Source: Candidatus Roslinia caecavium
GTDB taxonomy: Bacteria; Bacillota; Clostridia; Monoglobales; Monoglobaceae
Length of the DNA stretch: 64,000 nt
Direction: 5' to 3'
NCBI GenBank assembly: GCA_904419955.1
Contig: CAJFTO010000013.1
Coordinates: 1 to 64,000 of the forward strand
In this document: piece by piece, positions 17,903-22,390 of the stretch
Layout of the letters: each line of letters opens with the position of its first letter
How positions within the stretch are numbered: position 1 is the first letter of the stretch
Program-made: the position numbers and the translations under genes
The notes under the pieces: generated by a model
What the model was told of the DNA's origin: nothing
The model's input: the letters and a program-made list of their open reading frames with translations, nothing else
Database searches by the model: none

Positions 17903-18109
17903 TCAATCCTCCGTATACTCCAAAATATCTCCGGGCTGGCAGTCCAGGATCCTGCAGATCGCGTCCAGCGTCGAGAACCTAACGGCTTTCGCTTTATTAT
18001 TCTTCAAGATAGAAAGATTCGCGGGCGTAATATCCATCTTATCCGCAAGCTCCATAAGTCCGATCTTTCGCTTCGCCATCATTACGTCCAAATTAACTAC
18101 TATAGCCAT
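17903..18109 (-). CDS. YozG-like HTH transcriptional regulator
   Basis: A 68-residue Cro/CI-type helix-turn-helix protein: MMAKRKIGLMELADKMDITP, then ANLSILKNNKAKAVRFSTLD and LDCQPGDILEY, the consensus of the small YozG-type regulators. These are found beside DUF2975 genes, as here: the DUF2975 stop and this ATG are separated by one base. It probably binds the palindromic operator at 18629-18660 in its own promoter. That autoregulation is inferred from position and from the family habit. Confidence 0.85.
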   Translation of the reverse strand: MAIVVNLDVMMAKRKIGLMELADKMDITPANLSILKNNKAKAVRFSTLDAICRILDCQPGDILEYTED

Positions 18110-18110
18110 C

Positions 18111-18563
18111 TCACACCGTCCAATCGTTTTCTTCTTTATACAAGATCGCCCGCTTAAATATATCTTTCAAAGTCAGACAAAATAATCCGCCGAGTATAAA
18201 AACCATTACTACGATAACCGTCGATACGGAAAATATAAATACGCATTTCACAACATAAGCCAGCGCGATAATCCCGCACGCTACAGCCATCCGCTTTAAA
18301 CAAACTACGTTTTTATTTACAAACGGGTTGCCGCCTGACAGCGTTTTATACATCAGTTTTAAATTGAACAAAATATATACCGCGCAGACGCCTGAGATAA
18401 ACAATATCATTATAAACAAAATAAGTCTGCCTTGGCTGTAATTATAAAATCTGTTTATAGTATTTGAAAAAATCGGCGTCAAAACGACGCAGACTATCCC
18501 CAAATAAAACATGACGTCGATAATCACTATTGTCGCCGTTTGAATGATATTCTTTTCACGCAT
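18111..18563 (-). CDS. DUF2975 membrane protein
   Basis: A 150-residue protein with four transmembrane segments and the DUF2975 features NTINRFYNYSQGRLILFIMI and the loop GGNPFVNKNVVCLKRMA. Such proteins are paired with small YozG regulators in Firmicutes; their role is unknown, perhaps sensing at the membrane. The ATG at 18563 has GGAGGCGG upstream. Longer frames would overlap the -10 region and are rejected. First gene of a four-gene operon. Confidence 0.85.
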   Translation of the reverse strand: MREKNIIQTATIVIIDVMFYLGIVCVVLTPIFSNTINRFYNYSQGRLILFIMILFISGVCAVYILFNLKLMYKTLSGGNPFVNKNVVCLKRMAVACGIIALAYVVKCVFIFSVSTVIVVMVFILGGLFCLTLKDIFKRAILYKEENDWTV

Positions 18564-18602
18564 TGCAAAGCCGCCTCCAAAATCTAAAATTTTCATGTAT
18601 AA

Positions 18603-18660
18603 ATTATAACACACCTCTTTTCAAAAATCAATAAATATTTATTGTTTATCAATAAATATT
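18603..18660 (-). promoter_or_regulatory. Promoter with palindromic operator for the DUF2975-HTH operon
   Basis: On the minus strand TTGATT (18631-18626), 17 bp, TATAAT (18608-18603). A perfect 16-bp palindrome, CAATAAATATTTATTG (18629-18644), overlaps the -35, and a second copy of its left half, CAATAAATATTTA, starts at 18650. An inner inverted repeat TTATTG/CAATAA (18639-18655) links them. This is a plausible site for the YozG-like regulator. Confidence 0.75.
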
Positions 18661-18735: not shown

Positions 18736-19428
18736 TTACATATACAGAGCTATCTTATTCAGCGCAGATTCCGGGATCATCAGTTTTCCGTATTCGTTCA
18801 ATATTCCAAACATCAAAGGCGTGGCGCTGCAATTTTCTCCGAACTCGGACAAGCGCGAACATATCTTAGAAGATTTTCTCTTTTCCTCGGCTCTCAGAAC
18901 GATATAGTAGTTTTCTTCGAGCTTATACAATCTGCTGTCGCCCTTAAATTTGCCGCCGACCGTTTTGGCCGCCGAGCAAACCGCGTCAAACTCCACAAAC
19001 TTAAAGATATGGGTGAACTGTTTATCAGCCGTTCTTCTAAACTCGCTCGTCGCCTTCTTCGCTCTGCTCTTACTTGCGTCGTACGTTTCAAGGTCGTCGC
19101 TCGTGACCTTGCTGCGTATCTCTCTGCGCTTTATATGCCCTTTATACGAACATTGCTCTATGGCTTTTTCCAGCTCGAGCTCGCTCTCGATCTTGGTGAT
19201 GAACAGTCCGAACCCCTCGTCGCCGTGCGGCTCCGTCTCGACAAACAGCTTGGCTCCGTCCACAAAAAATTCCATGTCCCGCTCCGCTTTCCTGATCGCC
19301 TTCCAGAACATATCCTGAACCTGAGGCGTATTCTGAGAAATGCTTTTTATACTGACGTTCCAGGCCTTCGCCTCGTCGTCGTCTATCATTACTTTGATTT
19401 TGTTGCTATTAATTTTTTCGATTTTCAT
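18736..19428 (-). CDS. mecA: Adaptor protein MecA
   Basis: A 230-residue MecA/YpbH protein. MecA brings substrates to the ClpC-ClpP protease and, in Bacillus, blocks competence by delivering ComK. The N-terminal domain starts MKIEKINSNKIKVMIDDDE; the C-terminal ClpC-binding domain (about 120-230) includes YKLEENYYIVLR and GILNEYGKLMI. A basic linker with KSRAKKATSEFRR separates them. ATG with GGGGAG upstream. Single gene with its own terminator; the 5' gap leads to the RNA candidate. Confidence 0.92.
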   Translation of the reverse strand: MKIEKINSNKIKVMIDDDEAKAWNVSIKSISQNTPQVQDMFWKAIRKAERDMEFFVDGAKLFVETEPHGDEGFGLFITKIESELELEKAIEQCSYKGHIKRREIRSKVTSDDLETYDASKSRAKKATSEFRRTADKQFTHIFKFVEFDAVCSAAKTVGGKFKGDSRLYKLEENYYIVLRAEEKRKSSKICSRLSEFGENCSATPLMFGILNEYGKLMIPESALNKIALYM

Positions 19429-19774: not shown

Positions 19775-19802
19775 TTGTAATTTTCAGAAAATGTGATATA
19801 AT
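19775..19802 (+). promoter_or_regulatory. Extended -10 promoter for the structured RNA candidate
   Basis: TTGTAA (19775-19780), 16 bp, TATAAT (19797-19802), with TG one base before the -10. Transcription would start near 19809, inside an 8-bp inverted repeat ATAGGTTT/AAACCTAT (19801-19842). No open reading frame follows before the rsmD promoter. The rest of the 870-bp mecA-rsmD gap (19429-19770 and 20060-20150) is AT-rich with nothing recognised. Confidence 0.65.
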
Positions 19803-19808
19803 AGGTTT

Positions 19809-20055
19809 GTAAGTGAAAAACTTTCAATTTATAAAAACCTATAATTTGAATAATTCATCCCTGCGATGTTTGTATATTAGGTCATAATGTAAAACCAACA
19901 CTTATTTTAAGGGATTAATTCTCCGGCGGCGGCGCACATGCCTCACGTCTTAGGACGTCCAGTGGACTTGTAAAGTCTCCGGGTGCTTTCCCACCTGGCT
20001 TCCAGGTTTTTACTTTAGCCAATCTACGGCACTTGCGGGGATTATTTTTATTTTA
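19809..20055 (+). ncRNA. Candidate structured noncoding RNA, class unknown
   Basis: A promoter-driven, non-coding stretch. Its GC-rich core (19917-20043) is closed by AATTCTCCG (19917-19925) and CGGGGATT (20036-20043), with two T-G pairs that would be A-C mismatches on the other strand, so the plus strand is favoured. A T-rich tail follows. Inside are the hairpins ACGTC/GACGT and GGACTT/AAGTCT, plus two mutually exclusive stems: CCAGTGG (19959-19965) with CCACCTGG (19991-19998), or ACCTGG (19993-19998) with CCAGGT (20002-20007) followed by TTTTTAC. I could not match it to a known class; 6S RNA or a riboswitch-like attenuator are possibilities. Confidence 0.5.
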
Positions 20056-20152
20056 ATTATGCTTTATCTTTAATTATCGCCGCGTTTTCCGCGGGTATCT
20101 TCTTATATAGCTCTAAAAGCTCTCATATATCTCTGTTTTGTTACAAAACTAC

Positions 20153-20181: not shown

Positions 20182-20307
20182 TATAAGGTATATAATTATA
20201 TTTTTATGTAGTTATCTCGGTTTGTATCGCAGATATAATTTTTTATGTCGAAAAATTATTTGTTACGCGCTATTGAACCGATAGAGAATACTTTAGGAGG
20301 TTTTGTT

Positions 20308-21349
<1,042 letters not shown>

Positions 21350-21388: not shown

Positions 21389-21904
21389 ATGGATGCTTTA
21401 GAATTGTTAGACGAGTTAGAGGATATAATCGATAAAGGCGCTGCCGTACCTTTTTCTGGCCGCTGTATCCTCGAAAAAGACGAGCTCTTGGATATACTTC
21501 AAGAAATCAAGTTAAAACTTCCGGACGATCTCAAGCAGGCTAAGTGGATCAAGGAAGAAAGAAACAGGATCATCCAGGAGGCTCAGGCCGAGGCGGACAA
21601 CCTTATCAAAACCGCCGAAGACAAGATCATAGCTATGGTGAACGAAAACGAGATCACCAAGAAAGCTATAGTTCAGGGCAATCAACTGATGGAACAGGCG
21701 CGCGACAACGCTCAGCAGATCCAGGATTCTTCTTACGCATACGCGGATAATCTGCTCGAAACGGTCGAAAAAGTCGTTTTGAGTTCGATGAAGGATATGG
21801 AACAGTGCATTTCTATCGTTCGTAACAACAGAAACGAGCTCAGAAATAACAACGCCGTAAGTTCTCAGAACTTGGCGCCCGCGCCGAGCGAGAACGCAAA
21901 CTAA
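21389..21904 (+). CDS. Coiled-coil protein (ATPase-subunit-B/DivIVA-like) next to coaD
   Basis: A 171-residue acidic, mostly helical protein. Residues 1-50 are a small folded region (MDALELLDELEDIIDKGAAV, PFSGRCILEKDELLDIL); from about 50 to 150 it is a coiled coil with KWIKEERNRIIQEAQAEADN. Similar proteins follow coaD in many Clostridia and are often annotated as ATP synthase F0 subunit B-like or DivIVA-like by coiled-coil resemblance only. It has no membrane segment, so a true F-type b subunit is unlikely. AGGAGG is placed 10 bp before the ATG. A strong terminator follows. Confidence 0.65.
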   Translation: MDALELLDELEDIIDKGAAVPFSGRCILEKDELLDILQEIKLKLPDDLKQAKWIKEERNRIIQEAQAEADNLIKTAEDKIIAMVNENEITKKAIVQGNQLMEQARDNAQQIQDSSYAYADNLLETVEKVVLSSMKDMEQCISIVRNNRNELRNNNAVSSQNLAPAPSENAN

Positions 21905-22147: not shown

Positions 22148-22390
22148 TTATTGAATTTCCTGTTCTAACTTATGAAACACGGGCGCGTCAAAAAATTCGA
22201 CCAACGAAATCCCTAAACCGTCGCATAGCTTTTTGATAGTAACGATTCCGGGATTTTTACTTGATCCATTCAATATATTTTTTACAGTTGACGGAGGAAC
22301 CGCCGCAAGCGTTGATAATCTACTGACAGTGATCTCATTTTGAGCGCATAATTCTAATATTCTGTGAACGACAGCGCTACGCGTATCCAT
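22148..22390 (-). CDS. XRE-family helix-turn-helix regulator
   Basis: An 80-residue single-domain DNA-binding protein: HRILELCAQNEITVSRLSTL, AAVPPSTVKNILNG and IKKLCDGLGISLVEFFD. The pattern is that of short Cro/CI-like regulators in Clostridia. The ATG follows GGGTGAG. It is isolated between the coaD operon and a membrane protein gene, each about 190 bp away, so its target is not indicated by context. Confidence 0.85.
   Translation of the reverse strand: MDTRSAVVHRILELCAQNEITVSRLSTLAAVPPSTVKNILNGSSKNPGIVTIKKLCDGLGISLVEFFDAPVFHKLEQEIQ

Follow-up and report, generated by a model that had tools for sequence, protein, structure and literature searches.

A very probable 6S RNA (ssrS) gene between mecA and rsmD in a Clostridia bacterium

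The intergenic region between mecA and rsmD codes for an ordinary 6S RNA, by which a known family gains a member. We consider it close to certain that positions 19855-20045 of the analysed window (the whole DNA stretch of 64,000 nucleotides) are the single 6S RNA gene (ssrS) of this Clostridia bacterium, with the layout of B. subtilis 6S-1. 6S RNA is a well-known small RNA which imitates an open promoter and retains RNA polymerase in slow growth. The assignment is based on what is directly seen, namely the match to the Rfam family RF00013, the rod with its central bubble, covariation, conservation (51 of 60 genomes) and synteny, together with the stability of the fold, an invariant sequence block, and a hairpin in the 3' central bubble. 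The features of the region are as follows.

18739-19428, minus strand: mecA (Pfam MecA)
19775-19802, plus strand: predicted 6S promoter, extended -10 (TTGTAA, 16 nt, TATAAT with TG before it; predicted start near 19809)
19809-19854, plus strand: putative pre-6S 5' leader of about 46 nt, exceeding that of most relatives, with a second TATAAT at 19840-19845
19855-20045, plus strand: 6S RNA (ssrS), mature region (RF00013 match, covariation)
19857-19874, plus strand: closing (terminal) stem, 5' strand, pairing with 20025-20042
19886-19900, plus strand: putative pRNA template AATGTAAAACCAACA, comprising the 5' strand of helix P2 and the start of the 5' central bubble
19922-19983, plus strand: apical arm, with helix 19922-19930/19975-19983 and capping hairpin 19931-19933/19940-19942
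19993-20007, plus strand: 3' central-bubble (3'-CB) hairpin ACCTGG-CTT-CCAGGT, with pairs 19993-19998/20002-20007
20005-20013, plus strand: helix P2, 3' strand (GGTTTTTAC), overlapping the 3'-CB hairpin by its first three bases
20025-20042, plus strand: closing stem, 3' strand, followed by a T-rich tail and possible terminator
20245-20862: reading frame of rsmD (TIGR00095)

The initial annotation had described a structured RNA without a nameable match, and had suggested a search of Rfam with 6S RNA among the families to look for. When the 64-kb window was scanned, RF00013 (6S/SsrS RNA) was the only family to exceed its gathering score. The match covers the model in full (1-187 of 187) and reaches 64.0 bits against a gathering score of 46.4, with an E-value of 2.4e-10 for the whole window; some order-level relatives score higher (up to 97 bits). 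It lies on the plus strand, which agrees with the orientation that had been deduced from T-G pairs. A weak match to mir-2943 at 20027-20091 (22.3, gathering score 76) was discarded. The idea of an unknown RNA class is thus refuted by a match to a known one, the very outcome that the initial annotation had named as explaining the RNA, and no new class is required: the region can be annotated as ssrS plus its promoter.

A search with the family model retrieved 6S RNA above the cut-off in 51 of 60 genomes, at one place in each, the host genome included. At the DNA level, all 36 same-family genomes contain the region (73-81% identity), and most of these matches start near 19855 and stop at about 20045-20055, which are the boundaries of the RNA. 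The intergenic region is AT-rich (23-26% G+C), within which 19855-20045 forms an island of 47% G+C. In the family, the 6S RNA sits between mecA and rsmD-coaD; the latter pair flanks it in nearly all same-family loci examined, with mecA on the other side in most. Within the stretch examined, mecA, rsmD, and coaD were not seen at the loci of genomes G002 and G004, nor at loci outside the family. A search of literature titles and abstracts revealed no earlier report of the mecA-6S-rsmD neighbourhood.

The arrangement in genome G010 (locus L053, G010:C12) departs from the order found in most of the family: mecA is next to rsmD with both on the same strand, and the 6S RNA, beside mecA, is on the opposite strand. 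The ORF after coaD (21389-21904, 171 aa) belongs to the neighbourhood conserved in this family (identity of 56-92% for the portion seen); its sole match, V-ATPase G-like, is sub-threshold. On the minus strand, a gene for a DUF2975 protein is found beside that for a small HTH_26 regulator (17903-18614), and a second HTH_26-type regulator is encoded at 22148-22390.

Structural analysis was based on an alignment of 34 family sequences, for which a consensus was computed by RNAalifold. This consensus is the 6S rod. Its closing stem consists of 19859-19863/20036-20040 plus 19867-19874/20025-20031 and is followed by helix P2 (19889-19894/20008-20013), a short helix (19911-19913/19990-19992), and the apical arm. 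The rod with its closing stem and large central bubble is seen alike in the fold of the single sequence, where the ends are closed as in the consensus, in the consensus itself, and in the pair counts. The stable folding proposed earlier was confirmed, with -60.3 kcal/mol for 19850-20050 (z -2.86) and an equally stable fold in 1 of 200 shuffles. Conservation of the pairings in related intergenic regions, which had been suggested as a check, was found for the 6S rod: 97.8% of the cells are paired across the 34 sequences, and 10 pairs (76 cells) show changes on both sides. The covariation score of the rod is 0.195, compared to a maximum of 0.059 for slid controls (36-54% paired), a control which is generous because the rod was derived from the same alignment. 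Firmer evidence comes from those pairs of the apical arm and of the hairpin in which both sides have changed; six of the 10 double-change pairs belong to the apical helix 19922-19930/19975-19983. None of 500 shuffles matched the observed paired percentage or score of the rod.

A different closing stem, 19917-19925 with 20036-20043, had been proposed initially. It does not hold: its two registers are paired in 71% and 63% of the cells, and it clashes with the supported helices 19859-19863/20036-20040 and 19922-19930/19975-19983. The true closure is 19857-19874 with 20025-20042.

The initial annotation had also seen competing hairpins, an antiterminator CCAGTGG/CCACCTGG and a terminator ACCTGG/CCAGGT-T5, and this leads to the alternative that the RNA is a cis-acting, riboswitch-like leader which controls rsmD. 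The sequence of the window indeed allows both pairings, and there is a T run after the hairpin. The hairpin itself is paired in all 204 cells of the 34 sequences, and its last pair is G-C in 21, C-G in 11, and T-A in 2 of them. It is this variation which speaks against a switch, because the antiterminator uses base 19998 too: in the 13 sequences that are changed at this base, the hairpin partner changes along with it while the antiterminator partner stays unchanged, so that one antiterminator pair is mismatched in exactly these 13. A riboswitch of this kind would have two conserved, mutually exclusive pairings, one of them a terminator ahead of the gene; such an arrangement is not seen in the alignment. 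Moreover, the conserved pairing extends beyond the T run to close the full 6S rod, and 6S is the only family above its gathering score. We thus regard cis-acting control of rsmD as extremely improbable. What stood from the competing hairpins is ACCTGG/CCAGGT and the T-rich sequence at the 3' end of the RNA; the hairpin is the 3'-CB hairpin rather than a terminator. Likewise, a promoter-driven, structured, trans-acting RNA fits 6S RNA well, and only the switch and the unknown class had to be abandoned.

By homology, what would matter in the 6S RNA is the overlap of helix P2 with the 3'-CB hairpin, GGT at 20005-20007 being part of both. In B. subtilis 6S-1, the free RNA has a hairpin of this type, which appears stabilised when pRNA is bound and whose description matches 19993-20007; P2 of 6S RNAs is unwound upon pRNA synthesis (PMC8876501). 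The longest invariant block of the alignment, AATGTAAAACCAACA at 19886-19900, is identical in all 34 sequences. From homology to B. subtilis 6S-1 (PMC8876501), we infer that it is the pRNA template; the pRNA start site is placed purely by analogy.

The extended -10 promoter of the initial annotation (TTGTAA-16-TATAAT, TG before the -10, 19775-19802) proved to be real, as did the non-coding nature of the sequence that follows, and motif conservation indicates that it is the 6S RNA's own promoter, shared across the family. With at most one hexamer mismatch allowed and at most 110 nt upstream considered, 28 of the 34 family members have TGN-TATAAT ahead of 6S, where shuffles give 4.3 on average and no more than 11. 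In 26 of 34 members, the end of the extended -10 is 7-29 nt away from the RNA; the distance is 52 nt in the host genome, somewhat long, and 49 nt in genome G005. This greater distance points to a pre-6S leader that is longer than usual, at about 46 nt, the sole mildly unusual feature of this RNA. Compared to most relatives, about 40 nt are extra in 19797-19854, and these carry an 8-bp inverted repeat (ATAGGTTT / AAACCTAT) and the second TATAAT. We also considered whether the leader might be mobile or repeated DNA and rejected this, as no second copy was found in the genome (best other match, E 0.15).

It might be asked whether 19809-19854 has a working role in regulation or processing, or whether the true promoter is the TATAAT at 19840-19845; either would be a rider on the 6S assignment and not an alternative to it. 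The long distance (52 nt, or 49 nt in G005, against 7-29 nt) is in favour, as is the position of the second TATAAT, which ends 9 nt before the RNA, so that a start from it would fall right at the mature end. However, this second motif has a -35 with 2 of 6 matches and lacks a TG, and most relatives do not share the leader, which may be neutral. We thus consider a working leader or second promoter unlikely. More doubtful still is the idea that inserted sequence gave this lineage its own leader of about 46 nt and, through a longer pre-6S or a second start, brought new control on maturation.

For the 6S RNA, the following course can be proposed from what is established for the family. The extended -10 promoter would start transcription near 19809, and the leader of about 46 nt would be trimmed from the pre-6S RNA. 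The RNA would imitate an open promoter and bind the holoenzyme of RNA polymerase with the housekeeping sigma factor, and the bound polymerase would be retained during slow growth. Once nucleotides return, the polymerase would copy a short pRNA off the template at 19886-19900; its synthesis would open helix P2, and the RNA would be released.

Specialists gain an aligned 6S set for this family, with an invariant 15-nt putative pRNA template, a covarying hairpin, and the conserved mecA-6S-rsmD-coaD neighbourhood. The RNA resembles 6S RNA of the B. subtilis 6S-1 type (RF00013) in its full-length model match, the rod, closing stem, central bubble, helix P2, apical arm, and 3'-bubble hairpin, and apparently in having its own promoter; it differs from most of its own family in the longer distance between promoter and RNA (52 nt). 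While B. subtilis has two such RNAs, 6S-1 and 6S-2 (PMC8876501), and two tandem 6S genes are described for the B. cereus group (PMC7726162), one copy was found in the host genome. Ms1 RNA from actinobacteria, here compared from the literature, is structurally related to 6S RNA (PMC9130861); it is an actinobacterial binder of core polymerase, whereas the RNA of the host genome matches RF00013.
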